DNA of 64,000 bases, taken from Quercus robur (lineage: Eukaryota > Streptophyta > Magnoliopsida > Fagales > Fagaceae). The stretch covers positions 41,454,327 through 41,518,326 of the forward strand of contig NC_065545.1 in the NCBI RefSeq assembly GCF_932294415.1. Reading direction: 5' to 3'. The notes under the pieces were generated by a model, which worked only from the letters and a program-made list of their open reading frames with translations, was not told the DNA's origin and did not search any database. Position 1 is the first letter of the stretch. Each line of letters starts with the position of its first letter. Made by a program: the position numbers and the translations under genes. Positions 31,936 to 62,800 of the stretch are shown piece by piece.

Positions 31936-31957
31936 AGAGAGAGAGAAAGAGAGTGTG

Positions 31958-32599: not shown

Positions 32600-32604
32600 T
32601 CATA

Positions 32605-34250: not shown

Positions 34251-34253
34251 ATA

Positions 34254-34884: not shown

Positions 34885-35209
34885 ATAGCCCCTCAAAACC
34901 CTACTGTCCGACTTCCTGGTCAGAGAGGGGGGTTTTGATAATACCGAGCATTTATTATGGCTCATTTAATTCAGCCCTTGACTGACGCAGGCCACTCTTC
35001 ACCTGCCTAGGGAATGTACCGGTCTACAAGATATTCCCCTTGATTTGCGCACGATGCGTTTCTGCCGTTTGGTTATCTGAAGCGCGCCTTTATTATCTTC
35101 CCTTTACGAGACCTCTCAGGTTCAACGGTTTTTGATGACGTGGGGGAATAAAACGGGCGTATTCATGTCTGTAGATTTCCTTGGAGATCTGAACTCATTA
35201 AGTACTATT

Positions 35210-38740: not shown

Positions 38741-38978
38741 TACTTCCTGAAGGTTAGCTCCTCGAATAAGGTGGGGGAAACTAGCTTGATGTTTAAAGCC
38801 CCTAGACTTGCCATGCAACTGGCATTACAAGGCGTAGCCCCTAGTGGGAACTTGTGTCAAAACAACAACAACGTGTCGCCAGTCGTAAAGGCATCTTAGT
38901 AGACCCTTGTTCGACAGAAGCTCAACCCCACCTCCGCTCGAGCTAACGCGCAAGCCCCTTCCCACAGACGGCGCCAAT

Positions 38979-39609
38979 TGTAGGGTCACGTTCCGCGACG
39001 AACCGCAGTAGTGTTGGGTTCGCACGTGAATGGGCCCAAACAATATCATTTGTAGAGAGTGGGTTCGAAAGGCTAGGCCTTGGCTACCCAGCGGTGGGTT
39101 TTTGTGGTGTTCATATGTGATTAAAGTACCTTTACCCTTGGAGTCTTTCTCTTGGAGGTGGACTGGAAGCCCTTCCTTTTTGGCCAGTCTTCCCAGCCCC
39201 CTCTTCCAGATTACTTACTTTTCTTTTATACTAACCTGCGTTCGCTTTCCTTCGTCCACGTGTAGGGTCGACATTTCCAAGACTGATACTTGTCCCGTCA
39301 ATCCAAACCCAAAGTCGTTGGGGATGGTTGATAAAGCTGACGAATACGACTCTGTTAGGTCAGAACCTTGCATGGGAAGGGCAGTTTTTCCTAGATATTT
39401 TGGATTTTCTTTCAGGCTTGTTCCTATACCGTTTTTGCCCTTCTTCTCGGTGGAATTTTGGGTCTGCCGAGGACTGAATTGTCCTCGGCAACATCTCTGG
39501 GCCATTTTGGACTTTATGTTATTGAGTTTTGATTGTAACCCTCTTTGGCTTGAGCCTTAGGGCTCCCCATGAATAAATGGGTTCGGCCCATAAATTGCTG
39601 GGCCCCACA
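38979..39609 (-). repeat. LTR (5' LTR of the element)
   Basis: 631 bases matching 34254-34884. The adjacent gcgccaattg at 38971-38980 is, on the minus strand, the start of the primer-binding site, which fixes this as the 5' LTR. Confidence 0.9.
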
Positions 39610-39651
39610 ATATATATATATATATATATATATAGATCTCGTGCTAGAGAG

Positions 39652-42539: not shown

Positions 42540-43612
42540 TGAATATGCATGTGTGTCCTTTTATTCATCCCCAGACACAACCCAAACCCTCACATTCTCA
42601 TCTTCATTCTTTGTATCTTCTATACTACTAATAACATTATTCTTTGTTTAAGTTTTATCATTTTGTATACTAAAATATTTTCACACAAATTCTTAAACTC
42701 TCTAAAATACCCTATATTTTAGTTAAATAATTTTAAATAAAAAAATAAATGGATTAAAATAGTAATTTATTGTTCCTAAGATTTAGGCTTTTTTCTTTCT
42801 TTTCTCTATATGAATTACCACTTTTTTATTTTAAATTCAAAATTTTCAAACTTTAAACCCATTTATAAATAACTTTTTTTTAAAAATCACATAGAAAAAT
42901 ATCCTAAAATGATGACATTATATTTATCTCAGTTTTAAACATTACGATACTAAAAAAAATATATATATATATATATATATTTTTTTTAAAAGCTCAATTG
43001 CATGCACAAAGTATGTGTGATGAGGTCATTAGAGAAAACAAAAATGGTGATGAAGTGAGGGAAAATATTGTGGAAATCAAAGGAACCATGGAAATAGAGT
43101 TAAATAGGGCCAAAATGGCTATATACCACTGTTTACCGAAATATATATCAATCTACTACTATTTCAGAAATATATAGGGATCTATAATTTTTTGAGTACT
43201 CAAGTTTGGGGAACTCGAGTTCCATAAACTCGAATTCTTTAAAAAAATAGCCTTTAAATTAGCCAAAAAAAATTTTATGGAACTCGAATACCATGGGTAA
43301 CTTGAGGGCTCCCAAAAAAAAAAAAAAATTCCAATATATTTCCGAAACCGTATTAGACCAATATATATCTTGATAAATAGTGTCATTGTGTCATTTTTAG
43401 ATAAAGAATTGACTGGGCTGTGGAGCATGTGGCCCAAACTTTCAAAATGGTGACTAGGATAGTGTAGCAGTAGTATGCTGAACACTAGTACACTAACTTT
43501 CAAAAAAAAACAAACAAAAGCAAAAGCATGAGAGAGGGTTAAAAGAAGCAAGAAAAGAAGAAGAAACGGCAGAGAGAGACCCTAAAAATTAAATTAAATT
43601 AAATTCTGTCGA
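42540..43612. other. Upstream region of the RBR gene
   Basis: AT-rich, with an AT run at 42960-42980. At 43190-43310 lie short inverted phrases of the type aactcgagttcc and ggaactcgaatacc, which may be a small foldback element. The last 50 bases before the start codon are purine-rich. No TATA box was assigned with confidence. Confidence 0.4.
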
Positions 43613-44951
43613 ATGAAAATGGCTGCTCCATCTCCATCTCCATCTCCTCCTCCTCCTAATGATCCTCTTATTTTTGGGTCCTCATCCTCATCCTCATCCT
43701 CAAATCAAAGAGCCAAACTGATTCCCAAAAGAAAAAGGCATCAGCAAATGGATCAGAAACAGAATATTATAGATGTTGTCGAAGTTAACGATGATGATGA
43801 TGATGATGTTGTTGTTTTGAAAACAACGACCTCGGACAAAGGCGTTAAGGGAACCAACAAGTTCAACGCTATCTCTGTTGAACGCTACTCTGAGAACAGA
43901 GACCTTCAACTTGCTATCATGGCTTCTCTGCTCCAATCATCACCTAATTCTCAATCCTGCATCAACCTCGATGATCATCGTGATGACGGTGATGATGAAC
44001 TCCGAGTTCTTATGTTCAAACCCAAAATTCAAAACTGGCGAAGAACAACTTCTTCTGGTCCTCTTTTGGAAACTGGGCAGTCTTCTTCTTCAAAACCCAG
44101 CAATCAAAATGGCTCCGTTGAGTTTATCTGTGAAATTTGCACGGAAACCAAGAGTGGGAATGAGAGTTTTAGCATCAAGGGTTGTGATCATGCGTATTGT
44201 ACAGAGTGTATGGCCATGTACGTGGCTTCCAAGCTTCAAGACAATATTACATCTATACGTTGTCCTGTACCAGAATGTGTAGAAGGATTGTTGGAGCCAG
44301 AGCAGTGTCGTTCTATTCTTCCCAAGGATGTTTTTGACAGGTGGGGTAACGCTTTGTGTGAGGCTCTTATTCCTGGTTCACAAAAGTTTTATTGTCCCTT
44401 TAAGGATTGCTCGGCTTTGTTGCTTGATGACACCAGTGAGAGTGGAGAAAGCATAAGGGAGTCTCAATGTCCCAATTGTTTGAGAATGTTTTGTGCACAG
44501 TGTAAGGTTCCTTGGCATTCAGGGATTGACTGTGCCCAGTTCCAGAAATTGCATCAGAATGAGAGAGAAAGGGAGGATATCATGTTATTGAACCTTGCCC
44601 AGAACAAGAGTTGGAGTAGGTGTCCAAGTTGCAGATTCTATGTTGATAAAAATCAAGGCTGCATGTTTATCAAATGCAGGTCCTCATTTCTTTCTTTATA
44701 TTGCTAATTCCTTCAGATGTTCCAGCATACTTAATCTAGGACTTTGAATAGATATAGATGAATTAGACTTGTTAATTAGTATGTTTGGGTTGCTTTGCCA
44801 CTTCCTGCATATTCAATATTGTCTACCATATGCCAATTTTCATTCCATAATCTAGAATTCTAGATAAATATTTCAGCTGATGCTTACCCAGAGATTAATC
44901 AAGGCAACAAATCCAACTTATATCCCATTGCAAGCCTAGTGAAACTTACCA

Positions 44952-44990
<39 letters not shown>

Positions 44991-45779
44991 ACTGATGCAC
45001 AAATAGTTTGGATTTCTAGAAATATGATTTTGTGCAGAGGTTTGTGGTTGGACTTTGGAGTATCATTTGTCGCTTAAAATGAGGAGTAATAGCCTTTCTT
45101 GAACCATTTTCCTGGTTAACAATAGTGTTTATGTCAAAACTTTTATGTCTTTGTTCCTCAAAATGTCTATTTAGGAGCATGGTTCTTTAATTTTTTATAG
45201 GGAAAAACTTAGGTTCAATTACTAAGTGTTAAATCTTAGGTTTCCAAATTAAATTCAACCTCAGGGTTGATTGATCAATGCAGCGGTATTATCTTCTCCC
45301 ATGACCAGTTGACAGTGTAGTTCATTGGCCAATGTAACCATGTAATTAAATTTAATTGGGTAACCTATGGTACAGCACCTAAGGAACTATACCTAGGTAC
45401 CCCCCCCACACACACACACATATAATTTCCTTTATGATTGATAAAATTTTAGTTAGGTGCAGATTTTGTATATCATGTGTAATTGATGAGTTAATGTTCT
45501 TGTCCACCTACATGCTCAATCTATAGATTAAATTCCTACCTTACTCTATAAACGATAAAGTTGTTATTTAATTAAGGACCTTAGGCATGTGTTGACCCTA
45601 TTCTTGATGTATTACCTGCACAATCACTACAATTATTTTCAACTGGTATTTTTCTATGAAGTCTTGGATGCTGTAATAACTTTCTTTTTGTGTATTATCA
45701 CAGGTGTGGAATCGAATTCTGTTACAGATGTGGAACTGCAACAACTCGCTCTCATTTTTGTTCAAAGTGTAAATGTTAG
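43613..45779 (+). CDS. RBR-type E3 ubiquitin ligase (RING-IBR-RING)
   Basis: Two exons, 43613-44679 and 45704-45779, join across a GT-AG intron to 380 residues. The first 170 residues are low-complexity (Pro/Ser runs, an Asp run at about 56-62). RING1 starts at residue 173 (CEICTETKSG, then GCDHAYCTEC and CPVPEC). The IBR has YCPFKDC, CPNC, FCAQCKVPWH. RING2 has RCPSC and NQGC, with the likely catalytic Cys at 350, and finishes across the intron as KCRCGIEFCYRCG. RBR ligases take ubiquitin from E2 onto that Cys before passing it to a substrate. It resembles the plant RSL1/RNF144-like group, but it ends right after RING2 and lacks a C-terminal membrane anchor. Starts at codon 1 or codon 3 (43619) are both possible. 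Substrate unknown. Confidence 0.92.
44953..44999. repeat. 47-base poly-A run in the RBR intron
   Basis: An uninterrupted A-run. It could be the tail of an inserted retroelement, but no body or target duplication was found beside it. Confidence 0.85.
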
Positions 45780-46879
45780 TGGTTAGGAGACAAATTCCAC
45801 AATGGTCTTTGTATAGATACATTGGGTATTGTCATTTAGTGGATGGCGAAAAGTTAGATCTTTTTTGCCTGAAAATATTATAATTAGTTATGCCGGATAA
45901 TATTTGAATATTATTTATCTTTTCTAAAGGACCTCAAAGATGATATCTTGACCTTCTTGAAGGACATCTAGATTATCTTACTACCAAACCAAGTATACAA
46001 ATCTCTTTTCTTTTTCTTTTTCTTTTTTTTTTGGTGGCTTGTAATTGCTTGTTTGTTGAGAATTTATAAGCAACCCGATACTCACAATGGATGTTGTCTG
46101 GGACTAGTTTATCCACGTTGGCACTCACAATTCCAATTTATCTACCTGGTTCAAGTTCTAGTTTCAGATTATGTGCCAAATTGGTCTTATTTGAGATAAA
46201 GGAATTTTGAGTTCCTCCACAAACTTGGCATTGAAGTCTGCACCACTTAGATTCCCCACCATCTATGAATCAGTATTATCAACCACAACCACAGGATCAT
46301 TACTTCTGAACTGCACAATGTTCATTTGCAACAATAACAGAGGCTGCTGCCCAGGAGACGCGTTAGTCATTATGTTTTCCTATTGACAGGTAATTAAATA
46401 CAAGAACAGGAAATTATTTGTCTTTGTTTTAGACCAGGAGCGAAAGAATAGTCCTTATACTTCTTTGTGTCCTTCTGTTTGAAGGAATAGATTATCTAGT
46501 ACACATTTCTTGTCTCTTAACCCCTATCTTACTCCTTCCTGGTGATGATTGCATTCTTGGGATTGGTTTTCCACCTATGCTTATTTTAATTTCATGTTCT
46601 CACCAGTGTGTGTGTGTGTGTGACATGTGTTGTTGGTTGAAGTCCACTTATTTATAAGGCCACTGATTAGTCTGTGAGGTAATGGTCATCACATATCAGG
46701 CTGAGGACAACTTCATGTTTGGCTGGACATTTTAAGTGTTGCTTGTGATGCATGCTTTTTGATGGTCCTTCCTGATGAATTGCTTTAAAGAAATGGTTGC
46801 CAACATTTAATTGTGATTGTTGGGCTCTTCTTTACAAAGGTTCCATAAGTTATCACATACATATATAACTGTGATTGTA

Positions 46880-46975
46880 ATTAGCAAGCTGAAGTCTTTT
46901 CTCATTTATAATTATCATTTTACTTATCAAAAAAAAAATATATATATATATATATATATTAGCAAGCTGAAGTCT
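46880..46975 (+). mobile_element. Sixty-base LINE-tail insertion with 18-bp target duplication
   Basis: ATTAGCAAGCTGAAGTCT is repeated exactly at 46880-46897 and 46958-46975. The 60 bases between end in ttttacttatc, an A-run and TA repeats, and ttacttatc-poly(A) is the 3' end of LINE B. This is what target-primed reverse transcription leaves when it stops almost at once. Confidence 0.85.
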
Positions 46976-47109
46976 AAGTGGCTCTTGATTCTGACTTCTG
47001 AGTCAGTTGTTAAGTTGATCCAGACTTTGCTTTGAAATGCTTATGTTTCAAGAAAAAAAATACAGAAGTATGATGTTACTTACAAAATTCAAGTTGACTT
47101 CGTATTGGG

Positions 47110-47432
47110 CACTTTTGCACTTTAAGTATCCGCAAAATGCCAGCGTCTGGCATTTTGCGATTTCCTTCTTTTTTATTTATTTATTTATTTTTAATTGAGA
47201 AGCACGTGAAGATGTTGTCTGTCACTGTTCACGGGACAGTGATAGACATTTGACCAGAGAATAAACAGTGGACGGTGCACACCAGTGGGTCCCGTGCACT
47301 GTTCACAGGACCCACAAACCTCTTTTTTCAGCAATTTTTTCCTTAAAAATGGGTTCCATGGTACTATTCACACATTTAAAAATTATTTTGCTACAGTGTT
47401 TTCAGCAAAATAAGCGGTATCCAAATGGACCC
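47110..47432. mobile_element. MITE-like repeat, family M1 (copy 5)
   Basis: It contains the hairpin cactgttcacgggacagtg and cccgtgcactgttcacagg, plus gctacagtgttttcagcaaa, and ends gtatccaaatggaccct. A truncated further copy starts at about 47440 (gcgtttggattgagcttat). Confidence 0.7.
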
Positions 47433-47659
47433 TAAGTATGCGTTTGGATTGAGCTTATCAACCCTGCGTCTGCATTTTTTTTTTTTGGGAGAAGCGCGTT
47501 TCTGAGTAACCAGTGGTTTCCTTTGCTCTGAACCTAGGAAATATGACGTTTGTTATGCAAGTCCATGGACTTCTTTGATTATGCTAGGGTATTCGTGTGG
47601 TATCAGTTTGATGGAGGCTGGTTTGAGATTGGAATGCTTGGACAATGTAAGTTACTTAG

Positions 47660-48160
47660 AGTAGTTTAGGAAATGCAAACTCTTCAAGAGACACACTCTT
47701 GGTATGATACCTCTCATGTAAGTGTTCATTTAATGCTCCAAAAACTGATTATAAAGTAGTAGGCTTGGTACATTTATAGCCATCAAGGCAGGCTGCTATT
47801 GGTTGGCTGGTTTGTTGCACTTGTTGCTCTTTGATTGGCTTACAATAAAAACTTTCTAACTAACCGGCCCTAACTGACTGATCTTACCACTGCCTTATCA
47901 CTAACTGTTTTATTTCATGGATACACTATCAATCAGTTACAAGAGATCTAATACTAAGAATGCATTATATTACAAGCGCTGCAGGGCAAAGCAACCACAT
48001 AATGAACAATAGTCCAGCACTGTTATATATCTTGACTGCACTGCATCATGACTTAGCTGCATTAGCTTCATAGCTACAGCAGCATGCTCAGTAGCCACTT
48101 GCAAACACTAGGAATGCACTGCAAGTCTGCATCACAGTCCCCTGTCATACGTAATCATTC
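47660..48160. repeat. Possible LTR or dispersed repeat
   Basis: The stretch has paired phrases (aatcagttacaagagatcta, actaactgttttatttcatg) and the look of a copia-type LTR leader, but I could not fix ends or a target duplication. Weak call. Confidence 0.25.
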
Positions 48161-48765
48161 TTTTCCCTGAAATCATTGTAACAGAATGAGTCAAACTTGG
48201 TCTCCAAAGGTGCATAATAATACAAAAGAAATGGCAAGTACTTCTCTGAATGTTGATAAACATGCAATCTGTGGGCTGCATGTCATTGATTGGACCTTTT
48301 TTTACAAAATGGAAACCTTGAGTTCCTTGACATTCAAAATAATGGTATCGATTATTTTATTGTGGTATGTTTGCTCTTTTATGTTAGTTTATTATGGGTA
48401 TTCCTTTGGTACTGTCTATATTTGTATCATGATTAATACTTAAAAAGTATGTTAGGAAGTGGTTGATTTTTTAGGATAGAAATACCTTGTGCTTGTGGTT
48501 TAGTAGTCTAATCAACTGGTTGTGATGTGTATAATTGGTTCTATAACCAGTGCTTATACTATTCTGATTATTATTTTTTCTTGGTTTTGTAGCATTTAGA
48601 TATCTTTTGTATTTCAAGGCTCTGAATTTTAAGCTCAATATCTTTTAGATCATTGTTCAATAGCTGTAAAGTAAGTGATTTAAAATATGTCTTTTCATTT
48701 TGGGGTTTTTTTTTTTTTTTTGGACGAACTTTTTGGGGTTTCTAAATGAAAGTGAGTTGATTCAT

Positions 48766-48990
48766 TTTGGTGTGCATTTGGGATTGCTTAAAAAACTAGT
48801 TTTTTTTATTATTCAGCTTATTTTTGCTACTATTCATGGATTCTATTGCACTTTTTGGTACTATTTATGGTCCTACTGTACTATTCATGGTCCCACTATA
48901 CTATTTCAGCTACCTTTTAGCTTTATCTACAGTATTTTCAGCAAAAAGTTTTCAGTTTCAGCTAAATAAGTCGTTCCTAAATAGACACTT
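48766..48990. mobile_element. MITE-like repeat, family M1 (copy 6)
   Basis: It runs from tgtgcatttgggattgctta to agtcgttcctaaatagacac, with ttttgctactattcatgg and ctacagtattttcagcaaaa inside. Confidence 0.6.
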
Positions 48991-49696
48991 GAGTTGAAAC
49001 TTAAGAATAGATCATTTGATTTTATTTTTTTAGCTGAAGAGTAAGTTGTAATTGTCAAGTTAATGTAAGTACAGGATACAAGATGATAGTGAGCCTAGGC
49101 TTAACATCAACCCAATCAGTAACCACTAGGCTGATCCTGTTCTATTCTCCATAGGATTCATTTGTTGAGCTTGAGTTGGGTCAAGACTTCAAATGTGAAA
49201 AGCACACATCAAAGATGGTACTAATGATTTTGAGGCATGAGAATGCCTTTTGTCCTGTGGGTCACATAAATTTTAATTTCAAATCCAATTCTGGCATTCT
49301 TAAAGATTTCATCAGCTAAAAATGGAGCTATGTCAGTTTCTTGAAAATTAGTATGAAATTCTTTTTGGACTCCTCACCCATGCCTTCTGTTCTAGTCCCC
49401 AATATTTCGCACAATTCACTGATTCAGTCCCTGAGGTATCTTCAAACTGTGTAAGGCCACTTCCCTTCTTTTTGTTTAACCTTCACTCTCTCCCTCTCTC
49501 TCTCTTAAATATATATCTTAAATTAATGGAATTTTCTTCTTTTTGCAGGGCTTGCTTAAACCAAGTTATATTTTGTCAATATAATGTTATGGTATTCACT
49601 TAATTTGACACAATTACCGAAACTGTATTAACTATCATCAACTTGAAAATTGTGTCTGTTCTCCATAGTTCTATGTTCTATTCTTAGCTAATGCAG

Positions 49697-49720
49697 GTTC
49701 CCCCCCCCCCCCCCCCCCCC
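49697..49720. repeat. Poly-C tract
   Basis: A run of about 24 C in intergenic DNA. Copy number is likely uncertain. Confidence 0.85.
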
Positions 49721-49776
49721 CAAAAACTCAACTCTCTTTTCTTTCTTCCTTTGTACTTTTGACTAGTTTGTGTTTG

Positions 49777-50135
49777 TCGGACCATGACCCATGCCATTTC
49801 ACCTCAAAACCAATTGGTGATGAGAAAAACACATTGAAATCTTTTATGGCATTCGACATTGCGCCCCATGAGCCTACTTTTAAAGTGGTTGTAGTGAGTC
49901 AAATTTTGATCCCCCCAACAATTTCTCCCTCACAGTGACACTCTCGCGACTAGAACCCATGTCCTTGGCTCTAATATCATTTGTCGGATCGCGAGTTGTG
50001 CCATTCATCCTCAAAACCAATTGGTGATGAGAAAAGAGACTCTCAAATCTTTTATAGCATTTGACATCGCACTTCGTGAGTCTATTTTTAGAGTGGTTGT
50101 AGGGAGTTAAATTGTGGTCCTCCCAACAGTGCTCC
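49777..50135. repeat. About 200-bp tandem duplication
   Basis: Two diverged copies in a row share gtcggac/tcggatc, ctcaaaaccaattggtgatg and ttttagagtggttgtagg. The first starts near 49777, the second near 49980. Not coding. Confidence 0.7.
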
Positions 50136-50144
50136 TTTGCACAA

Positions 50145-50670
50145 AGTAGTTTTTTTTTTTTTAATTTATTTTTATTTTTTATAATTTATATAGATCCTTC
50201 TTATTTATCGAAGAAAAAAAAAAAGAAAAAAAAAAGATAATCGCTACAAAGATGTATAGATCAAAAGCCTATATGTAAGAGACTCAAAAGAAGTTTAATT
50301 TTGTAATGGTGAAGCAACTTCCTTGAAATGGACCAGCTGATTTTAAAACACAGAGAGAGATACATAGGCGAGCAAAGAAAGACAAGGAAAATGTTTCAAA
50401 AGCAAATGAGGCAATTACAAGAGAGAAAAGAACTAATGAACATAGAGAGAGATTTACTAGATGTGAATCCCCAAGTGCAAGACCAGTCAAACAAAAAGCC
50501 ACTAAAAGAAGCAAGCAACTGATTATCCGAACTATCCACATCCTCAAACGTCTGCCTATTACTCTTCCCCTAAGTACAACACATCAAACACAATGGAACT
50601 AAAACCCAGATGTCTGAAGAATGCTTCCCCAACCAATCCCACCAACCAAAAATAAAAGAGCAGGTATCAT
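50145..50670 (-). mobile_element. LINE 3' fragment
   Basis: On the minus strand, broken C-terminal ORF2 text is visible: SNRQTFEDVDSSDNQLL and FLFDWSCTWGF, equivalent to the end of LINE B ORF2 ([10 protein letters not shown]...LLDWFSMW). A T-run near 50150-50163 marks the 3' side. It ends about 35 bases before the first methyltransferase exon. Confidence 0.65.
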
Positions 50671-51315
50671 CTTTGTTCAGTGCATTCTGATTGTTGTTCT
50701 TTAGAATTTCAAATGAGTTATTACAAATTTAATGAATCTCAAAGAGAACAAACTGTGTTAAAGAGGCTGAAGCAGGGTGAGATTGTGGCATTGATAAGTG
50801 ATGCGGGGACACTTTGCGTTAGTGATCCTGGTATGGATTTGGTGAGTTTTGTAGTACATTCTGGTTTGCTGTTTGACTCTTGTTATTTTTTCATGCCCTC
50901 TAGTTTGAAAGATCAGTCATAATAAAACCTCGTTACCCTTTGGTGGGACGCATATTGTGGTAAAATGATCTTGATTGCAATTTTTAGTGGATGTAATACC
51001 TTCATTTTTCCACTTGAATTGAGTCAAATTAAAATGGGGTAGAATGATGTGGAAGTACTTCAGCAGTAATTTGGATGTGGTACATGGATATAGATATATA
51101 GTTAGGGTTGAGTACTCTTGTTTGTTTATCTTCCCTATTTATCCTCTTGTTCAGTCTTAGCATAAAGGTTAATTGTTTTTATATTATATGTCATTATTTC
51201 ATAAATGTTGATTGTGTAGAATGCTCATTTTTGCAACAAACAAGAGTTGTATTTATTTCTTCTTTCACTACAAAGTAGGCCAGCATGGTATGAATTTGGC
51301 TGGCTTTTAAACTAG

Positions 51316-51316
<1 letters not shown>

Positions 51317-51355
<39 letters not shown>

Positions 51356-51455
51356 GCTAAGGATACTTTGAGAAGGAGAGGAGGGGAGGGGAGTAGGAGG
51401 CCTGAATGCCCCCCCCCCCCCCCCCCCCCCCCCCGCCCCCCTCCCCCCCCCCCCC
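51317..51455. repeat. CT microsatellite and long poly-C tract
   Basis: A CT run at 51317-51352, then a C-tract at about 51409-51455 broken by single G and T bases. It lies in the first intron of the RsmI-type fragment. Such tracts are prone to sequencing error. Confidence 0.85.
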
Positions 51456-51751
51456 TGGTTAGCCACTTTGCTGGATGTTTGCAGTTGAGTTTTCGCTGTT
51501 GATTTATTTTGAGAATTGAAATGAATACATATTTGAAATCTTAGTGCAGGAAAGGTTATGTGTGGATGAGAATATTATTGTTATTCCCATTCCTAGGCCT
51601 TCCACTTTGATTGCTACTCTTTCTGACTCTTGTTTGGTCACTGATGGCATTGCATTTGGTAATTTTCTTACTCATAATGTGGGATAGCATGCTTATTGTA
51701 GGATTCAGTGTCCAAAATTTTAAGATGTTGAAAAACATTTTTTTTGTAAAT

Positions 51752-52015
51752 TACTGTAACGACCCAAGGAAAAACGCTAGTCACACTATACCTTAAAAAG
51801 ACTAGTCACAATTGAGGCTCTTTGTAATTGTTAATAAACCCCAGATCTACCGAGTATATGCCCGATGTGGGACTCATCACACACCCATGCACATCACACA
51901 ATCAATAAAATTGGGGCATCACAATTACAAACACATCTTGTGAGTTATGAGCCCACAACTTCACCCTTCCTCTTGTTTTTATAAGAGTGGAGGTGCCATT
52001 TGTGCACTGGGTACA
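51752..52015. repeat. LTR-like repeat starting tgtaacgaccc
   Basis: It has a TG...CA outline (tgtaacgacccaagg to actgggtaca) and the phrase gcccgatgtgggactc seen in plant LTR-derived repeats. No target duplication was found. Weak call. Confidence 0.3.
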
Positions 52016-52948
52016 ACTTTTTTTTAGGAGGTTCCATTTGTACTAGAGCTCATTGGCATTAGGATTTTAAACCTTATATTATATATACTGCAGCAATTGG
52101 ATTCCTAAACATGCTAGATCAAGAAGAGAGAGACTGATGGTTTCTGCAAATGAGTTGGTGACTCAAATATTCTATGTTCCTCCACACAAGCTTCATCAGT
52201 TTCTTAAAGAAACTTCTTTGCATTTCAGTGACTCCAGGTAAATTCCTTATCCACCTAAATGTACATATATCCTATTTGCTACTATGGAAATCTCTTTATC
52301 TGTTATATAATAGATGCAGGAAAACATATCAACAGTTTACTGGGAAGTGACAAAATTGTAAAATTCTTGCTTTGTCTGTCTGATTAGTAAACTTCTTCTT
52401 AACTTGCTTATTGGCAATATGAGCTATGTTCTTTCTTTTTCCTTTTAGTTTGCCCCTCCTTTTCTTGGAAATGTCATATTTGTTTTAAGGGAGTGCTGGA
52501 AGTATACACCCAATGTCACTGGATCAACATCAGTAACCTTTTGTTCCTGGGTGAGGATGGGTAACTTATTGATACTATAGCCTCTTGCTTTTAATTAATT
52601 CCTAGGTTATTAATTATTGTATGCAGCCAAATTTTGGTTTCTTGATACAATTAGGAGATTATCCTCAGGACTCCTGGTACAATGAGCAGTTTTACATCAA
52701 TTAGAGGGAGGCGAAATTATACGAGCTTTCACTCCTTTGAAGTTCTAATTATGGTTCATTTCATGTGACGATGGATTACAAAATGAAATTGTATTAGTAA
52801 ATTCATGTGTAATAGCTGATTTGCTGTGGATATTTACTCTTTTATAAGTAGATATACAGTTCCTTAGAATCAGCTTTGACAATTCATCATAACAATTGTA
52901 TTGCAGACGATGTTTCATAGCTCGAGAGATGACAATATGCACGAAGAG

Positions 52949-54257
52949 GTAGGTCCTACATTTTTACATCTTCTTCATGTTGCTTCAGTGAGTGAGAATG
53001 TGGATTGTAATGCTGTCTGGACTTCGGAGACTAATTTATCTGCGCTATAATATTTCCTTACCAAATTTGTGTTGAATATAATTATATTAGGCCAAATAGG
53101 CACCACAATATTGTGATGGTGACCTATTTGTGGATTGCAATGAGATCTTACTTTATCAACTGCAATAGACAAAGTCATTTATTCATTTGGTTGGGTATAT
53201 GGGGCACTATGGAGAGGTTTCTGATGCCATCAAGGCACTCAAGAATGATTTCTCTCTCTCTCTCTCATATCTTCTGTTTTTAGTACTCTTCAAGCACCCT
53301 CTCCCTTGGTCTGATTTTTATTAAAATGATGAAAACAAATACCTAAAGAGTACTTGCTGAGAACTACACTTGCTATGTCAAAGAAGGACGTTAAAGTTGT
53401 TTCAGTACTACATTTATCTTATTTTATGATGCAGCAAAAAGACCGTACCTTCATAGCCATCTGACAGTAATAGGGCTTAAGAGGAGCATCCAACAGAAAA
53501 GGCAACAAGAGATAGCAAAAGTATTGAACTTGAAACTCAAATGTTTCTAGGCTCAAGAAACCTAGGATATATTCGAGATATAAATTCATAAATGTCAAAA
53601 GACTGCTTAGGGAACTCTTAAATGACTACTGAAATGAGGCTTATTGTAATATTACAGTATAATTCTTAACTACATATGAATTTATAAACAAAAAAAAATT
53701 AACCATATATGAATTCTTTTAATTGAAGCTAACCAAGCTCATCAAAAGTCATATTCTAATCCCATAAAGTTACATAAAGAATATGAACATAAGTATTAAT
53801 TGGTTTGAATTTGAAATTTCTCTTTCAAATTGTAATTAATTTGGTTCAAGTGCTAAATGTGATAGCCATGTAGGGATATATTTGTGTCTATGCATGTATT
53901 TGTGCACAATTGTATTTTATCATATTAGTAATACTAGGGAAGTTTGTGAAAAGTAAAGGGTATGTGATTTTAATTAGGAAATTATACTGTGAGTGTGTGA
54001 TTTTAACAAAAAAACATAAAAAGGATTTGGTAATATTGTGCCTTTTGGAGCAATTAAGTTAAAATGAGTGTGTCCTTTAAAGTGGCCTTGGAGTCTAGAG
54101 GTAGAGCCTCCATGAATTTAGAAAAGTCACATGGTGAATAGTAGATATCCTTTAGTATTGTAATTCTTAAGATTTTGTTATATTAACTTCATATTACTTG
54201 TTAGACTTTACTTAATTTCAATTAACAGCTATTGGCTTTGGTATTTGCAATCTGTAG
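52949..54257. other. Sequence between gene fragments, unexplained
   Basis: No exon could be assigned. A short open phrase (GHYGEVSDAIKAL, near 53200-53240) is followed by a CT run, and I could not place it. AT-rich with short simple repeats. Confidence 0.35.
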
Positions 54258-54547
54258 ATACCTGGATAAACTTTTCAATCAGTATGTCACAATTGTTTGC
54301 TCCTTAACTTCCATTCTGGCTTTGGGGGAGGTATGCTTGTTTTACTAAATTTCATGATTTTGCTGGTTTAGCTGAGATGTTTGAAGCTACTACATTTGAT
54401 GGATTTAAATGGGATTGATTGTCCTGTTGTCATTCATTTGTCAGGTCATTCTACAAGCAATATGCACAAGATATGGACTTACTATCGGGGCCAAGTTCAT
54501 ATGGCTTGTGGGAGTTGTAATGATAATTTTCTATCCTATAGCTTGGG
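54258..54547 (+). pseudogene. DUF21/CNNM-type membrane protein gene fragment
   Basis: Two adjoining exon-like pieces match plant DUF21-domain proteins. Piece 1 (54258-54330): YLDKLFNQYVTIV and ILALGE, at a GT donor. Piece 2 (54445-54547): VILQAICTRYGLTIGAKF, then VMIIFYPIAW, after an AG acceptor. In intact members the text runs GEVIPQAICTRYGL...YPI and then into CBS domains. Here the rest is missing and the second piece runs into a stop soon after. All other exons are absent within the window. Partial, non-functional copy. Confidence 0.8.
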
Positions 54548-54769
54548 TGAGTTTATTTTGTTCTGTTCACTTGTGAATTTAGACTGATGCATGGCACTTT
54601 ATGAATTATCCTTGTGTAAATCTTGGACATAATATTTTTTTTATCCCTTTCATTTTACTGAGAAATTGATTTTTTTACTATGGGAGGTTGATAAAGAAAA
54701 AAAGCTTCCATTTATTCTTATTATTTCATGGAGAAGCAATCAACTTAATCCTTCTTCTATACTTTGCAG

Positions 54770-55509
54770 GATTAAACATCAGTCCATGCTTTGTCTGCCA
54801 AAAGGTCTGACTCTTTAGCAGAACCTTTAGATTGATATTCTTCCCTTAATCATAGAATATTTAATTTTTATGTACCTTGTGCATGCTATGCTGAATCATT
54901 TATTATTTCATTTTTCTTATTAGGTAGAGAATCACATTGTTGGAGCTCCATGTGGTGTGATGGATCAGAACTTAAAGCATGTGGTGAAGCCAACACACTT
55001 CTTGCAGTGATGTTCCAGGTATGCATATTAGCTCTGTAGAAAACTACTTGACTACAGTTTTTTCACAGATCAAAAAATGATGTCTAAATTTGAATCTATG
55101 CAACCTGCTGAGATATATCAAATTGCTTTCTTAGCTAGACATATTGACCATAGCCCAGTGCTTTTGTTGGTGCTGATTAACGTCATATGTGCTTACTCTA
55201 AGTAGCGATAACTTAGACTCATATTCCTTGTTATGGTACTGTCAGTTCATAAATATATTCTTGCTTTAAATTTCCATCTATGGTTTCTTTTTTGAGTACA
55301 TTTTGTGGACTTCATTGCTATAAGACATTAAAGATTTGAGAGATAATGTGCAGCAGAGATACCTTGTCTGTCTTAATTTTTTATTACTATAATTACATGT
55401 CTGCTGAGTTAGTTTGCTTAATTACTTGTCTCACAGGCTTTCAAAGCACTTATAACATCGGCAACTTCAGATGAGCAACATATGGGATCTTGGAGAACTA
55501 TTGTATGAG
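54770..55509 (+). pseudogene. ARA1: L-arabinokinase gene fragment
   Basis: Three exon-like pieces match the GHMP-kinase part of plant L-arabinokinase, which phosphorylates free L-arabinose in sugar salvage. Piece 1 (54770-54804): GLNISP then VCQK, with a three-codon loss. Piece 2 (54924-55018): VENHIVGAPCGVMDQ, a frameshift, then in another frame ACGEANTLLA. Piece 3 (55437-55509): AFKALITSATSDEQ, then a frameshift before LGELLYE. Exon order and direction are as in the parent gene, introns kept, but the long N-terminal glycosyltransferase-like part and the C-terminus are absent. It lies only 220 bases after the DUF21 piece. Confidence 0.85.
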
Positions 55510-57600
55510 GTATATTTAAATTTTTAGTATTGATAAATTGTTAAGCGTGTTGTGTGTTTTGAAATCCGCTTATGCATATATGTAGGTAGGCCTCAGACGG
55601 AAATAAAGCAATGGAGACTAGTGACATCTGGAGTATCAGCCCCTTGTATTCCTTGCATGGCTAGCAATAAAAAATTCTAATGATTTTTTTATATTCTATA
55701 ATGCATGATTTTAAATTCATTCTATGAACGTATGTTGTCTTTTAGTAGGCTTGTAACAGGGACTGGAAAGTTATTTCTAACACTAACGATTTGTTCTAAG
55801 GCTTTGCAGAGCACCTATTGAATTTTTCTGATTTTCTAATTGTTTTTGTGATTTAGGATTTTTGAAATGCAATGGGGACAGATTGAAGATAGCTTTTGTT
55901 GAGGACATTACACATATAGCAGGATTCAGGCCAAAAAGAAAAGGAAAGACCAATTAATTTCACTATCAAAAGTTTTTGCTTCCATCATGCAAAATTTGTA
56001 CTAAGCCCATGGTTTTCAAACCACATCAATGTTTCTAATTCAATTATCATTATGTTACTCTATAACAGGATAATCATCATGAATGAGGTTTGTAGCTTTT
56101 ATATGTCCTAGTTATGGGCATGCATGGTCAAGTTGTTTAGCTAGTTTTATATGGCCTAATAATTATGGGCATGTATGATCACCATTTTAGTCATTGTTGA
56201 TAGCTGGGAAATACACTTCATATTTGGCCAAAATTTTTTCCATTTATGCTTTGCCCAACACCTGGCTGCTACCTGGTCGGTCAAATTAGGCAATGCTCAT
56301 AGGAAAGAGTTTTCCTCCAAACCGGTTTAGAGGAAAGTTCCTTCAATTCACTATGTGGCAACTTGCAAAACTATCCGCATGTACTTTTTGAGTCACATGA
56401 CTACTTGTTTAAATGATTTAATAAATCATGTGATTTAATTCTTGTGGATGGTCTTATGAACAGCCATGTAATAGGTGATCTGGTTTTGAGGAGAATTTTG
56501 TCCATGCTTATATGGGTGGCTTAAATTAGTCATGGGAGCTGCCTACGTTCATAATAAAAATGAATCCTTATCATATGAAAATGTGGGTTGTTTACTGCTT
56601 TAGTTATGTTGGAAGTGCTCTTACTGTGTCAGTCAGAGGTAGCAACAAAAAATATGGCAATAGGAAGTCAGTGGAAGGAGTTTCTTGCGAAAAGGATGTT
56701 ATTTGTGAAGGCAACCCATAAATAGGTTGTGTTTGCCTTGTGGCTAAAATATGTCAAAATCAGGGTCAGTCTGTCAGATGTGTACTAATGTAGAAAATTA
56801 TGTCTTAGTATGGCCTGCACGGTCTGTAATTTGTTTAAGAGTATCAGTTAACATAGTTTTGTGACTTTTGTCTCAGAAAAATCTTAGCATAGGTGAATTA
56901 GCAAAGAATGAACACTCATGTATGAATGAACAAGTCCAACTATTCAGGGAAAGTCCCAGAGTGCATCAGTGCAGATGAGTCAAACTTCTGCTCATTAAAT
57001 GGGATGGAGACAATGACACAACCATATCATTCTGGTGATGGATACTCAAGGTTATCTCGAGCTCTTACATCTCAATTGTAGGAGGAATCTGTCTGTCCAT
57101 GACTACCAGTGCAGGTGAGATCACCTGTTGGATGTGATCTTCCTATATGATCTTATCTCAGTTGCTTGAATATTTTTTTGTTATATATCCAATATGTGAT
57201 ATACAGATATATTTTATCTGGTTATCGTGATAACAGTGCAGCGCAATGACAATTGTGTATTTGTGTAAGACCTTATGAAGTTATACTTAACTTTTAAAAT
57301 TTTTTGAAACTTTTGTTAATTGAGTTTTTAATCAGAGTGGTGTTTAAATTTCTTGAAACTGTGATAATAAAGTTTACCCAATAGTAAATTATCTTAACAA
57401 TTTTAAGAGCAAAATGCAAAAACATCCTTCCAACTTCAAGTGTATTGCAAACTTCAATTTTTGAAAATTTAAATCATAAGGTTCCACAAAGTGTGAAATT
57501 GATCCTTCCATTTCATTAGTGGATAAAAATTATACATATAAATATAATTTGGAAGTTGGAAGAAGCAAATTAATTTATCCTTGGAGAGAGACGCGCTCTA
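55510..57600. other. Gene-free stretch after the gene fragments
   Basis: No further exon could be assigned. A few splice-like borders occur but no protein text that I recognise. Composition is like the rest of the region. Confidence 0.4.
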
Positions 57601-57602
57601 AG

Positions 57603-57825
57603 AGTCTGTTTGGGAATAGCTAATTTAGCTGAAACTGAAAATTTTTTGCTAAAAATATTGTAGATAAAGCTAAAAACTAGCTAATATAGTACGGTGGAAC
57701 CCATAAATAATAATAAAAAGTGCAATAGGACTCATGAATAGTAATAAAAATAAGTTGAACGGTAGTAAAAATAAGCTAAATAGTAAAAAAAACAGCATTT
57801 TCCAGCCAAGCCAAACGCAATAAAG
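57603..57825. mobile_element. MITE-like repeat, family M1 (copy 7)
   Basis: It runs from agagtctgtttgggaatagc to ccagccaagccaaacgcaat and shares aaatattgtagataaagct and ggactcatgaatagtaataa with other copies. Confidence 0.65.
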
Positions 57826-57945
57826 AAAGCCACAATTTTTTTTTAACATGCTTATAATAAGTTTGCTTGATTTTATTTTGTTTGGTTTCTAAGAAAATAG
57901 ATGTTGAAGAAATTGACGAGTTCGATCAAACTAAATTGTGGCTTT

Positions 57946-58240
57946 TTTATTTATTTTTATATAAGATAGAAATTCTACTCTACACCTTACAAGCACTTAT
58001 ATTTGTAGAGTGACCATCGCATCAAAGGTGTGCGGTGGTAAAAAACATAAAGAGATTGAATTGTGGCTTTCTTTCTTTTTTCTTTTTTTGATACAAGATA
58101 GAATTTCTACTTTAGCCTAATTTAAGTGTATATGTGTGTGAAGCTCCCTCCTAGAAACTTGAACCCTGACCCTTGCTCCCCACACTCCATAAGCATTTAT
58201 ATTTGTGGAGTGACCATCGCATCAGGGTGTGCGATGGTGA
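57946..58240. repeat. SINE-like dispersed repeat, family R (two copies)
   Basis: Copies at about 57946-58040 and 58075-58240 share caagcacttatatttgt-like text and gagtgaccatcgcatca, followed by gtgtgcg and a short spacer. Same family as 42362-42530. Confidence 0.55.
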
Positions 58241-58699
58241 ATTGTGACTTTCTTAATTGGTACAATATTGTTCTATATGGGTGCATCTATTAATGAACAC
58301 TTACATTTTAGAAATGGACATTTTAGTATTAATAAGGCACAATTAATTAATTATTTTTAAAGGATTCCCTATTGAATTTTTTGAATTTAATAAGGGGGGA
58401 CAATTTGTAGATTATCAATTAAGGGGACATTAATCACTTTTGTAATATAGAGGAAGATTGACATTGATCCGATAACTTAGAGCTAAAGTGCAATTATCCA
58501 TTATAATTTAATATGTAAGCACTAATAATTATCTATTACTCTCAAATTACATGTTTTCAAACAAATGCTGAGCCCCACAAATTGAATTCATTGTGTGATC
58601 CACCGTTTATTTTTATTTCTTAATTTTTAATGAAAAAAAAATATAGTTTAATTAATATGCAAACACAATAATAACAAATAATAAATGCCTATTAGTAAC

Positions 58700-59388
58700 T
58701 ATAGGGACACGATTTGCAGCCCAAGCCCTAAAATGTATGAGATTTTGGCCCAGTAAGCTCAGTACAATAAATTTGTAGAAAGTGGGTCAAAGAACTAGGT
58801 TTTAGTGAATTATACAACGACTAATATGGATGAACTCCTTGTCCGAGGAGGCAAGTGCTCATATAAATCAAGTAAACATAGTACAAGTGCAATTCTAATT
58901 GCTACAGTGTTCTTTCCCTCTTTTCCGATCCCCTTCCTCTAAGGTCTCTATTCTCATTTATACTACATCTCTTCCTTCACCTTTACCCTACACGTGGATA
59001 GTTGATGGCTTAGGCTGATACTTGTCCCATCAGCCTCCTCTAGAAGTCTTTGGAGGATGGTTATAAGGCTGGATAAGTACTGTTCAGAGGTCACTTCCTC
59101 ATTAATGCGGCCATGAAATTAGTTACAGAGCATTTAATGTTGTGGTAGCAGTTTTCCCTTAGATATTTTTGGGTTCCCATATTTCTTGTACGTTTATGGT
59201 GCACGTCCCTATCACTAGAACTTTTTGAAAGGTCACTTTGATCATTAGGATCTATACTCGATCTGCGTTTAGCTTATCCGAGGAGATATTCCTCCTCGGA
59301 TTCGAACTTCTCACGCTCTCAGCCAAAGCCCCACACTCTCGGCCAAAGCTCAAAACCCAATTGTATGATTTGGGCCCATGACCTCACA
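58700..59388 (+). repeat. LTR of an inverted pair (left copy)
   Basis: 689 bases from tatagggacacgatttgcag to gggcccatgacctcaca, the reverse complement of 59647-60334 with modest divergence. It carries tccgaggaggcaagtgctc, cctcctctagaagtctttgg and acttgtcccatcag. Related to the LTR at 34254 through the gatacttgtccc region and the TGTGGGG end. Confidence 0.85.
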
Positions 59389-59646
59389 TGTTAGTAAACC
59401 ATTTTAGAAATTTTTTTTATGAGAAAGCAAAAAAGTGATTAACTGTTTTGACAGTTTTTTTAATTTCTTATAAAAAAAATTCTAAAATGAATAATTAATG
59501 TGTGTCTTAAGGGAACATATTAACCGGATCCTATATATAATACAGAAAAATTTAACATATATATTTTTCCTCTCTTTCTTTTTTTGAAATATAAAATTCA
59601 ATAATTATACATTTAGAATCTTTAACAAAAGGCTAATGATAGTTAC
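59389..59646. other. Spacer between inverted LTRs, with small foldback
   Basis: 258 bases, AT-rich. At 59399-59489 the phrases cattttagaa and ttctaaaatg with inner ttatgagaaa/tttcttataa form an imperfect inverted repeat, probably a small MITE. No reading frame. Confidence 0.6.
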
Positions 59647-60334
59647 TGTGGGGTCATGGGCCCAAATCATACAATTGGGTTTTAGGCTTTGGCCGAGAGT
59701 GTGGGGCTTTGGCCGAAAGCGTGAGAAGTCCGAATCCGAGGAGGAATATCTCCTCGGATAAGCTAAACGCGGATCGAGTATAGATCCTAATGATCAAAGT
59801 GACATTTCAAAAAGCTTTAGTGATAGGGATGTGCACCATAAACGTGTAAGAAAGATGAGAACCTAAAAATATCTAAGGGAAAATTGCTACCACAGCATTG
59901 AATGCTCTGTAACTAATTCCCTAGCCACATTAATGAGGAAGTGACCTCTGAACAGTACTTTTCTAGCCTTATAACCATCCTCCAAAGACTTCTAGAGGAG
60001 GCTGATGGGACAAGTATTAGCCTAAGCCATCAACTATCCACGTGTAGGGTAAAGGTGAAGGAAGAGATGTAGTATAGATGAGAATAGAGACCTTAGAGGA
60101 AGGGAATCGGAAAACAGAGAAAGAACACTATAGCAATCACAATTGCACTTATACTCTGTTTACTTGATTTATATGAGCACTTGCCTCCTCGGATAAGGAG
60201 TTCATCCATATTAGCTTTTGTCCAATTCACTAAAACCTAGTTATTTGACCCACTCTCTACAAATTTATTGTACTAGACTTACTTGACCAAGACCTCATAC
60301 ATTTTGGGGCTTAGGCTGCAAATTGTATCCCTAC
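59647..60334 (-). repeat. LTR of an inverted pair (right copy)
   Basis: 688 bases starting tgtggggtcatgggcccaaa and ending gtatccctac. The outer flanks of the whole pair are both GTAAC (58695-58699 and 60335-60339); the inner left flank of this copy is GTTAC. The pair could fold into a hairpin with a stem of nearly 690 bp. Confidence 0.85.
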
Positions 60335-60372
60335 GTAACATTTGCCCCAAACATACATTAGTAAGACCCTTG

Positions 60373-60379
60373 TATATAA
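60373..60379 (+). promoter_or_regulatory. Possible TATA box of the zinc-finger gene
   Basis: TATATAA, 169-175 bases before the start codon. Plausible with a leader of about 140 bases that is GA-rich next to the ATG. Confidence 0.4.
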
Positions 60380-60547
60380 ATTATGTAGTATCGATATAAA
60401 AATAAAACACACACATATATATATATAAACCATCTAGTCTTTAGGAGTCAATTCTCTATAATAAAGTCATACTCATACAGTGATAGATAGATACCCATAG
60501 AATTAAGAAAGGGAAAAGAGAGAGAAAGAAGAGAGAAGAAGAAAGGG

Positions 60548-60670
60548 ATGACTCGGGGAAAGCAGAAGATCGAAGCGCAGAAACGAAATGCGGAGAAGAA
60601 TCAGAAGGCAAAAGGGTCTCAGTTTGAGGCCAGAGCCGTTGCTCTCAAAGTCACCTGTCCTATCTGTAAG
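60548..60670 (+). CDS. ZNF706/4F5-type small zinc-finger protein, exon 1
   Basis: Forty-one codons from ATG to a GT donor at 60671: MTRGKQKIEAQKRNAEKNQK, then KGSQFEARAVAL and CPICK. This is the N-terminal 4F5-like basic helix plus the first Cys pair of a single C2H2 zinc finger, as in plant ZNF706-like proteins of 60-80 residues. The second exon (second half of the finger with HYASKHP-type text) was not found up to position 64000, so the gene is truncated by the window or has lost it. Function of the family is poorly known. The purine-rich leader and codon pattern argue for a real first exon. Confidence 0.75.
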
Positions 60671-61269
60671 GTATCCTCTCTCCGACGACCCAGATCTGCC
60701 TTAATCAACTATTCTTATTCTTATGTTTGAGATTATTTATTTTCACTTTCTGCCCCCCCAAACAGCCTTGTACCTCAATTGCCACTACTTAGTCTTGCTT
60801 GCTTGAGAAATTTGGCCTCACTTGATTGAGAAATCAATAACTGACACAAAAAACTAAAAATATTATGAGGTGACAAGTTGTTAATGCTAAATAAATATAA
60901 AAAAAATAATGTTAGTGGTGGAACCAAACGAGAACCAGTAAAAACTTGACAATTTAGCAGTGTTGTTTATGTAGCGTTACTCTGTTTAATCAATTCTTAT
61001 TTTTGAAGAGACCCCATATGAATGGACTTCGACATTTGATACTTTTTGTACTGTTGGATACCTTGAGTTTTTGTTAGTCTTTCTTTGTATTTTTTTGCAG
61101 TAGCCGTATTGTGCAAGTGAAGTTGTCAAGTAGGTGCATTTAAATTGTAAAAGGAAACCACAGTGCGATTGTAAATGCCGAGCTAAAAGCTTATATGTGG
61201 AACTGAAACGCTAGGATTACCACATCAAGTGTACCCAGATCAAGTGTACCCATAAGCCTTTTCCGCATC

Positions 61270-61600
61270 AAGTGTACCCAGAAACGCTATGAGGAACCTC
61301 ATCGTCTTGATTAAATGCATTTTGTGTGTCACACAATGTCTCCCAATACCCCTTTAATCTATTTGCCAAAATTTTGGCCAGAATTTCATTGATACTACTA
61401 GCAAACTAATAGGGTGGGTTCTAGTTAGCTTAACTGGTAAAATCTTTTATCGTCAAATAAGAAATCTAGGGTTTGAACCCAGCCTACACCATAAAATCAA
61501 TTGGTGTTACTTATCAAAAAAAAAAGAAAAAAGAACTAATAGGCCTAAAACCCTTCACTCCAAGTGCTCCTGCTTTGACAACTAGAGATTGATGTCAGCA
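61270..61600 (-). mobile_element. LINE RT relic interrupted by a SINE
   Basis: Read on the minus strand across the SINE, broken ORF2 text is seen: AGALGVKGFRPISLL on the right side (61544-61600) continuing as KFWPKF and the QNAF-type region on the left (61290-61403). Heavily mutated. Confidence 0.7.
61404..61543 (+). mobile_element. SINE sharing its 3' tail with the local LINEs
   Basis: A 120-base element (61414-61533) flanked by AACTAATAGG at 61404-61413 and 61534-61543. It has an A-box-like TTAGCTTAACTGGTAA and a B-box-like GGTTTGAACCCAGCC, so it is tRNA-derived, and it ends ttacttatc plus A-run. The same ttacttatc-poly(A) ends LINE B (20880-20901). Confidence 0.9.
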
Positions 61601-62800
61601 GTTAGGCCAATACAGAGATATGGTCATATTGTTGATACTACAAGAATATGGTGTGAAAGGGGTAGTGTGAATGAAGTACAAGGTTCATATGTGACAATCC
61701 GGTAAATTTGTTTGCTGTTGCAGGAGTTAGATATGAAGTAGGGTCATAATACTTGAAATTTGAAAAGTTGGTTAATACTTTACAATCTGTGGACGCAGAA
61801 ATGAGTGTCATATTTTGCAGGAAGCAGGAAGCAGGAAGGTGGCAAATACAACCCCGTAATATATTAATTTATTCAGATATTAGGAACATGTCTATGTATG
61901 TTGGACGAACATATTAAAACATTGATGTGGACATTAACTATGTTATAAATTCATTAAAAAGGCATGACTATATGTTTAAGTGTGTAAATGTGACCACTTT
62001 GATATGTCTGTAAAAAAGTGGGGCAATGAGGCAAGAGTCTTCCAAGCTGGGAGAAGCTCTTAGAATAGCAAGTTTGAAGACGAAATGTTTTCAAATTTTT
62101 ACCCCAATATAATAAGGGGCCTTGTTGTAACGGTATGAATTTGGCTGGTTAGTTATGTCTTATTTCTATGTTTTGGCCACCTGGAACCCTATGAATTTGT
62201 CTAGTTAGTTGGGCCTTATTTCTATGTTTCTTAGCATCAGACTACAGGGATTATCTTAATTAAGCTTTGTCAAATATTGCTCAGTAAGGGGAATTCTGGC
62301 AATTCTGAATATGCTGGAATGGGTTGTACCACATGTAAATGAGTATCATTTCAGTTTTAGAAGTCTCCTCCATAGCTGGTTTCCTAATTACTTTTCTTTT
62401 TAAGTTTGCATACCAACCACCTCTCTAAAAAATTGGGGTAAGACTGCCCTTTTAACCACTTTTCTTAGACCCTGAAGAAACAGGAGCTATCTGCACAGGG
62501 TATAATTTTTTATTTAGTTTATAATCCTGTTCTTGTAGCAATAAGATTGGCAATAGGCTGGATAAAGCTATCTTGGTGATCTATCAAATTCAGGTAGAGA
62601 GTTTAATAAAGAGATTTTTCACAACTTTTAAAGCTTGATTTCCTTCTCCTTCCTAAGCTTACGTTTGGAAGGAGGGAGAGGATAAAAAGGAGAGAGGAAG
62701 AGAAGGGGGGTTGCAATCCTTTTTTGGATGATTCTTTTTGGTTTTTGGGAGAAGGGGATAGGATTTCAAGGGATACGGAGGGATAATATTATTACTTATG
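61601..62800. other. Gene-free stretch
   Basis: No exon or bounded element recognised. Two similar phrases, tgaatttggctggttagtta (62136) and tgaatttgtctagttagttg (62192), form a short tandem duplication. Confidence 0.4.

Follow-up and report, generated by a model that had tools for sequence, protein, structure and literature searches.

Intron-containing fragments of four unlinked genes in one block of the Quercus robur genome, and a possible origin by Helitron-like capture

Four gene fragments side by side

The window, by which we mean the whole 64-kb stretch of Quercus robur DNA that we analysed, holds a block at 49371-57237 where sense-strand, intron-containing pieces of four host genes lie side by side. 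From 5' to 3' these are an RsmI-type methyltransferase, a DUF21/CNNM protein, L-arabinokinase and a Sec1/Munc18 protein. We compared the window by blastn with sequence from the same 786-Mb plant genome, and took as parents the relatives on C2, C6, C41 (25 Mb away) and C37. Each fragment is collinear with its parent, and the fragments end inside genes. The original prediction was of a cluster of three genes starting at 50705. The RsmI, DUF21 and L-arabinokinase pieces are indeed there, on the plus strand, partial and out of frame. The extent was too small, as the Sec1/Munc18 piece had been missed and the RsmI copy begins at 49371.

The RsmI-type fragment (49371..53794, plus strand) retains introns and runs from inside exon 1 to the intron preceding the last exons of its parent at C2:10.8785-10.8832 Mb (L009 2038-6721). 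For 50683-53794 the best piece against C2:10.88 Mb has E=0 over 1310 aligned columns at 76%, and identities of the RsmI pieces to the parent range over 66-85%. The gene identity comes from an exon of the C2 gene that matches solved RsmI (5hw4) at 6e-9; its match to Pfam TP_methylase (3.9e-4) is below the cut-off. All four genes share one orientation, as had been predicted, except for one RsmI exon piece that is inverted (50230..50436, minus strand; L009 2495-2289, 64%, E 4e-10). Three repeats lie within the fragment: a high-copy repeat (49773..50128, plus strand), a remnant that is probably LINE-derived (50416..50655, minus strand), and a nested solo LTR-like repeat with TG...CA ends (51755..51923, plus strand), flanked by eye by a 5-bp duplication, ATTAC, at 51750-51754 and 51924-51928.

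The join to the DUF21/CNNM fragment is sharp, within 5 bases. This fragment (53800..54544, plus strand) includes an intron and has its parent on the minus strand at C6:49.927-49.928 Mb, with a best blastn E of 5e-104 at 80% (C6:49.93 Mb). CNNM matches window 54409-54573 at E 5e-4, below the Pfam cut-off, and the exon of the C6 parent at E 4.8e-7, above it.

The next fragment (54744..~55655, plus strand) is from a GHMP kinase gene which we take to be L-arabinokinase, a name read from the residues. Window 54744-55638 matches its parents at C41:16.36/16.39 Mb with E 2e-127 and 2e-146, at 83-87%. The alignment ends at 55638, and 55639-55655 were added by eye; weaker similarity may start at 54620. 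At an internal join (55113/55114), 2.4-2.8 kb of the arabinokinase gene is absent, with ~3 shared bases. An exon of the C41 gene hits GHMP_kinases_C at 0.0035, short of the Pfam cut-off.

The Sec1/Munc18 fragment (55794..57237, plus strand), presumably of KEULE/SEC1 type, is collinear with the minus strand of C37:55.23-55.24 Mb in pieces at 55794-55884, 56001-56307, 56787-57147 and 57147-57237 (E 1e-12, 8e-9, 8e-46 and 0.001). Pfam Sec1 matches the C37 parent exon at E 1.4e-5, below the cut-off. Directly past the fragment there is a repeat at 57292-57406.

When nine short window pieces were searched against Pfam, one matched the expected family at E<0.001 (CNNM, 5e-4), and Rfam gave no match to the window at the gathering threshold. 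As a control, the reversed window gave nothing better than E=0.001 against the same parents. In a control window (21000-36500), strong matches (E<1e-20) were confined to 6521-7231 of the SEC1 locus and 1-532 of the DUF21 locus, and both of these stretches fall outside the claimed pieces.

Intron stretches of the parents align with the window at the DNA level, so the fragments are not retrocopies, as had been argued originally. The parents had also been called unrelated; they are located on C2, C6, C41:16.4 Mb and C37 and are not neighbours. With the parents so separated within one genome, it is highly improbable that the block is a decayed duplicate, segmental or whole-genome, of a region where they were neighbours. 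Such a duplicate would fit the sense orientation and the collinearity within each gene, but the fragments stop inside genes, and 19.8 kb around the RsmI parent gave short or repeat-like matches only to the window outside the RsmI fragment.

Mismatch divergence from the parents is 15.3% for RsmI (390/2548 aligned bases) and 14.0% for DUF21. In arabinokinase it is 13.5% against gene B and, for the first part of the fragment, 10.0% against gene A. Sec1 is higher than the other three, at 24.6%. Similar divergence in three fragments with a higher value in Sec1 is the mix that stepwise capture would give.

A shorter relative on C38

A second locus, C38:20059347-20059915 together with its left edge, has RsmI followed by arabinokinase in the window's order and orientation. 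The search for other loci with the same fragment order, suggested along with the original prediction, was thus successful for these two genes; DUF21 and Sec1 pieces are absent from C38. The recurrence speaks for dispersal and makes an assembly join less likely. The idea that unrelated contigs were joined by mistake also has to contend with pieces that are 10-25% diverged from their parents and carry other insertions; nothing came up in its favour, and we find it barely credible.

The window and C38 share a 2-base indel against both the parent and a piece on C35. In the arabinokinase introns the distance between the two copies (0.164) is no smaller than their distances from the parent (0.143 and 0.134). 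In RsmI, the grouping of window with C38 comes largely from one block of ~65 columns (0.152 vs 0.214), and without that block the values are 0.156 vs 0.171 and 0.160. The solo LTR-like insertion is present in the window copy and absent from C38.

What C38 shares with the window is internal gene pieces only. We found no exact junction common to the two copies, and the outer borders that other copies had been expected to share did not turn up between window and C38. The LINE-like repeat at 50416-50655 also occurs near the C38 copy (73%); since the stretch on C38 has short matches to the window's LINE regions too, we rejected it as a border common to both copies. C35 has a further piece of RsmI only. 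We considered it as a third mosaic copy and rejected it, as 5 kb there contain no arabinokinase, DUF21 or Sec1 and give weak repeat-like matches only. C38 itself may be a deletion derivative.

Flanking repeats and searches for element ends

The left flank (46973..48671) is transposon sequence, related by eye to PIF/Harbinger, with no host gene; 47579-48267 is 95% identical to C2:41.2 Mb. Matches at 47800-48671 were tried as further captured genes and dropped because their genomic copies adjoin frames that by eye are transposase-like. Stretch 48985-49371 has no other copy.

The whole block is enclosed by two inverted, Tourist-like MITE arms of ~220 bp, at 48770..48988 (minus strand, flanked by TTG/TTG) and 57602..57820 (plus strand, flanked by TAA/TAA), which are 77-83% complementary in three stretches. 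The ends and the 3-bp duplications, which flank each arm singly, were read by eye. The arm family is abundant, with 6888 first-look candidates (the query was the arm family plus one other repeat) and four matches in the 64-kb window, both arms included. The abundance of the family and the complete look of each arm led us to reject them as the terminal inverted repeats (TIRs) of a single large element. The arms look like two separate MITEs, and 29.7 kb of sequence surrounding the C38 copy contain no match to them at E 1e-10. A composite mover, with these two MITEs as the ends of an 8.6-kb four-gene mosaic, seems to us a long shot; if true, it would mean that MITE-sized elements carried such a mosaic.

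For a Helitron 3' end we required a hairpin lying 4-12 bases before CTRRT. On the plus strand of 55640-62000 there was no perfect case (0.15 expected) and there were six with one stem mismatch (2.6 expected, sd 1.4), none of them convincing: four are G+C-poor and the other two are at 59913 and 61421. The minus strand of 44000-49371 has one perfect but G+C-poor site (0.07 expected), and the right side of C38 has no perfect site and one with a mismatch (1.4 expected). When the final T was left out of the scan, we found a perfect, G+C-rich 9-bp hairpin ahead of a CTAA near 59766, 2.5 kb past Sec1; the base after this CTAA is A. An element border (5' TC, A/T insertion site, no target duplication) could not be placed in the window or in C38. 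A Helitron end that had mutated over the observed divergence could escape the scan. The genome has many RepHel-type sequences (126 matches to the Rep domain, Helitron_like_N), and three of these lie in open frames 1431-1491 codons long, which makes them candidates for an autonomous partner.

A scan for TIRs with 8-11-bp duplications gave three matches, vs one in ten shuffles altogether. One is A/T-rich and the other two are a single place inside the MITE arms, so we found no convincing MULE-type TIR with such a duplication around the block. This bears on capture by a Pack-type TIR transposon (MULE, CACTA, hAT or PIF/Harbinger), which we think unlikely. Host DNA is reported in Pack-TYPE elements of the main TIR superfamilies, among them PIF (PMC8903248), and the inverted arms and the PIF/Harbinger-related left flank would suit one. 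Against it, the family of the arms is abundant, either arm resembles a complete MITE bounded by a duplication of its own, and no match to them was seen around C38. The non-autonomous elements described in that source (Pack-MULE, Pack-CACTA, Pack-PIF) likewise carry pieces of host genes, but here our scan for duplications of 8-11 bp found no element-level TIR with a target-site duplication.

Origin and meaning of the block

Since there are no convincing Helitron or MULE ends or shared borders, the vehicle in the original proposal of Helitron or Pack-type capture is something that we infer; the unlinked parents, the introns and the common orientation did agree with that proposal. Without a transposon, the pieces might have entered breaks singly, by template switching or end joining, in a patchwork of repair. 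We regard this as a less probable explanation, though a more serious one than the TIR transposon. The abrupt joins, where little sequence is added (at RsmI/DUF21 and inside arabinokinase), resemble the chimeric joins of the NHEJ filler mosaics described at maize p2/p1 (PMC2686159), and the RsmI-only piece on C35 and the lack of convincing ends would also fit. However, the filler DNA reported there is 1-131 bp and the pieces here are 0.75-4.4 kb, and patchwork repair would not predict four of four genes in one direction nor the same two-gene order on C38.

We put at about even an ancient, end-eroded, Helitron-like multi-gene capture with C38 as a deleted copy. An ancient mobile element would have copied exon and intron DNA of the four unlinked genes successively and in one orientation. 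The product would then have dispersed, leaving the window as the fuller copy and C38 as the deleted one, and afterwards internal stretches would have gone missing from the window copy, one of its exons would have been inverted and other repeats would have moved in. That one element made all of the captures is probable in this account, and a Helitron is suggested by the stepwise captures without TIR or target duplication. Gene-capturing Helitrons described in maize and Lolium similarly bring unrelated, intron-containing fragments into one block with parents elsewhere, with divergence that differs between fragments and copies that have internal losses. In Lolium, an Lp-psGI Helitron is reported to carry parts of three genes, of which the one from GIGANTEA is 83% (exon) and 73% (intron) identical to the parent (PMC2702305), and stepwise capture with internal loss is described for maize Helitrons (PMC3288121). 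Unlike those elements, the block has no TC...hairpin-CTRR ends, A/T insertion site or border-sharing family that we could find.

The block had been singled out as the most system-like structure of the window, which goes too far. It has the appearance of old pseudogenic debris, its four fragments are probably non-functional, and it is a familiar kind of genomic debris, most likely from mobile-element capture with decayed ends. It opens no new mechanism. For annotation it is a warning, because exon-like pieces of four genes occur here without a working gene. As a record of old multi-gene capture in a plant, accompanied by a shorter relative at another locus of that genome, it may be of use for dating the capture and the internal loss of sequence.

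Four gene fragments in one row

The window occupies C41:41454327-41518326 in a genome whose genes mark it as that of a plant. We searched this genome (785.7 Mb, 42 contigs) at the DNA level and used blastn against the fetched loci to define the fragments, and we found sense fragments of four host genes in one row within the window. The RsmI-type methyltransferase fragment (49371-53794, plus strand) is collinear with positions 2038-6721 of its parent locus on C2 (L009) and runs from inside parent exon 1 to an intron preceding the last exons. Its left edge at 49371 is sharp, and it holds an inverted RsmI exon piece (50230-50436, minus strand). The DUF21/CNNM fragment (53800-54544, plus strand) matches positions 5732-4658 of the parent locus on C6 (L010), on the minus strand in the parent. 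The L-arabinokinase fragment (plus strand; 54744-55114, then 55113-55638, which by eye extends to 55655) has two tandem parent genes, at C41:16.36 and 16.39 Mb, and its two pieces correspond to regions separated by 2.4-2.8 kb in both genes. Three tandem repeats of about 220 bp sit in an intron of the second parent gene (positions 7457-8100 of that locus, L013). The Sec1/Munc18 fragment (55794-57237, plus strand) comprises four collinear pieces with 76, 60, 68 and 69% identity to C37:55.23-55.24 Mb, the last piece being weak (E 0.001). The original prediction of a three-gene cluster had all three fragments correctly in sense, but it missed Sec1 and the first 1.3 kb of RsmI.

Divergence was counted as mismatches only, within aligned pieces. 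The rates for RsmI (390/2548, 15.3%), DUF21 (79/565, 14.0%) and arabinokinase (119/884, 13.5%, against gene B of the tandem pair; 37/371, 10.0%, against gene A, first part only) are close, and we therefore assign these three a similar age. Sec1 differs from its parent at 105 of 427 positions (24.6%): this fragment is of greater age, or the parent closest to it has been lost.

Copies elsewhere in the genome

The initial fragment search scored 40 of 775 first-look candidates; all candidates were scored for arabinokinase (6/6), RsmI 52026-53800 (5/5), DUF21 (4/4), Sec1 56500-57290 (2/2) and 48985-49775 (8/8). Copying of the RsmI region seems to have happened on more than one occasion: an RsmI-only piece at C35:41.3826 Mb (L055, 1598-2060), whose two best stretches are 84-87% identical to the parent, stands without the other block genes in the 5 kb examined there. 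The remaining short matches are 36 bases of RsmI on C1 (5/5 scored) and two from the DUF21 list (4/4 scored): 105 bases of DUF21 at C41:19.94 Mb, and 42 bases on C1 across the start of the arabinokinase piece.

A locus on C38 (L014, reverse strand; 40 of 62 candidates scored) holds RsmI pieces that correspond to window 52566-52907 and 53576-53622. No more than about 22 bases after them comes an arabinokinase piece, which corresponds to 55460-55638 and continues for about 100 bases more into parent sequence. The 3' end of a gene that we read by eye as a pectin methylesterase lies about 0.85 kb away. The RsmI parent has an insert of about 400 bp, MITE-like by eye (L009, about 4190-4590), that the window copy lacks; this says little because the C38 RsmI piece starts about at the insert.

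A post-capture history common to the window and C38 copies is only partly supported. In RsmI the two are 0.152 apart and the distance from the parent is 0.214, with a bootstrap value of 0.99 from 2000 resamplings; they also share one 2-base indel that differs from both the parent and the C35 piece. Without one block of about 65 columns the RsmI distance is 0.156 versus 0.171 and 0.160. The arabinokinase intron gives 0.164 versus 0.143 and 0.134 to the parent, and the whole 3' arabinokinase piece gives 0.206 versus 0.145 and 0.149. The solo LTR of the window (51755-51923) is absent from C38, and direct comparison of the flanks found no common flank beyond repeats. Judged from the distances alone, the copies may have had an early separate origin, while the same two-gene order arising independently twice seems unlikely. 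Taken together, the distances and the indel are consistent with the copies having separated near the time of capture.

Borders and probable capture vehicle

Scans around the block for a Helitron end (hairpin plus CTRRT, with 60 first-order random sequences per test as control, and a looser hairpin scan) and for MULE-like TIRs with TSDs (10 random pairs as control) were negative or unconvincing. The sole good hairpin, which is G+C-rich, precedes CTAA near 59766 with A as the next base, and it is flanked by inverted stretches that belong to another element (58892-59172 and 59866-60137). These stretches, which fall within 58667-60271, are also present on C6.

The block lies between inverted arms (48770-48988 and 57602-57820), each of which seems to be a complete MITE; their family has four matches in the window and very many genome candidates (40 of 6888 scored, for a query that also contained one other repeat). 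To the left of the block, at 46973-48671, there is transposon sequence (40 of 5157 scored). Just past Sec1, 57292-57406 is a repeat found on C6, C3 and C1 at 76-83% among the matches listed (40 of 204 scored), with a nearly identical left edge.

Other features of the window include a LINE (15041-20811) whose endonuclease and reverse transcriptase domains lie in long open frames, a gene with an IBR domain of the RING-between-RING type (43598-44707), and a Legumin/11S globulin-like cupin gene (2757-4599, minus strand; read by eye outside 3206-3808). There is also an element at 34357-39620: its direct repeats (34357-34887 and about 39082-39620) are LTR-like, and it has a tandem repeat of about 80 bp at 37.9-38.8 kb. 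On C6 a copy of it (83% over 3 kb) is found roughly 3-4 kb away from the DUF21 parent, probably by chance.

Because the element-end scans and flank comparisons were negative or unconvincing, we can only infer the vehicle, and we do so from the anatomy of the block, the 126 genome-wide hits to the Helitron Rep domain and published cases (PMC2702305, PMC3288121). Literature also consulted was PMC4528327, PMC8903248, PMC4683698 and PMC2686159. The vehicle was most likely Helitron-like. The mosaic is real and old, is probably non-functional, and belongs to a known kind.
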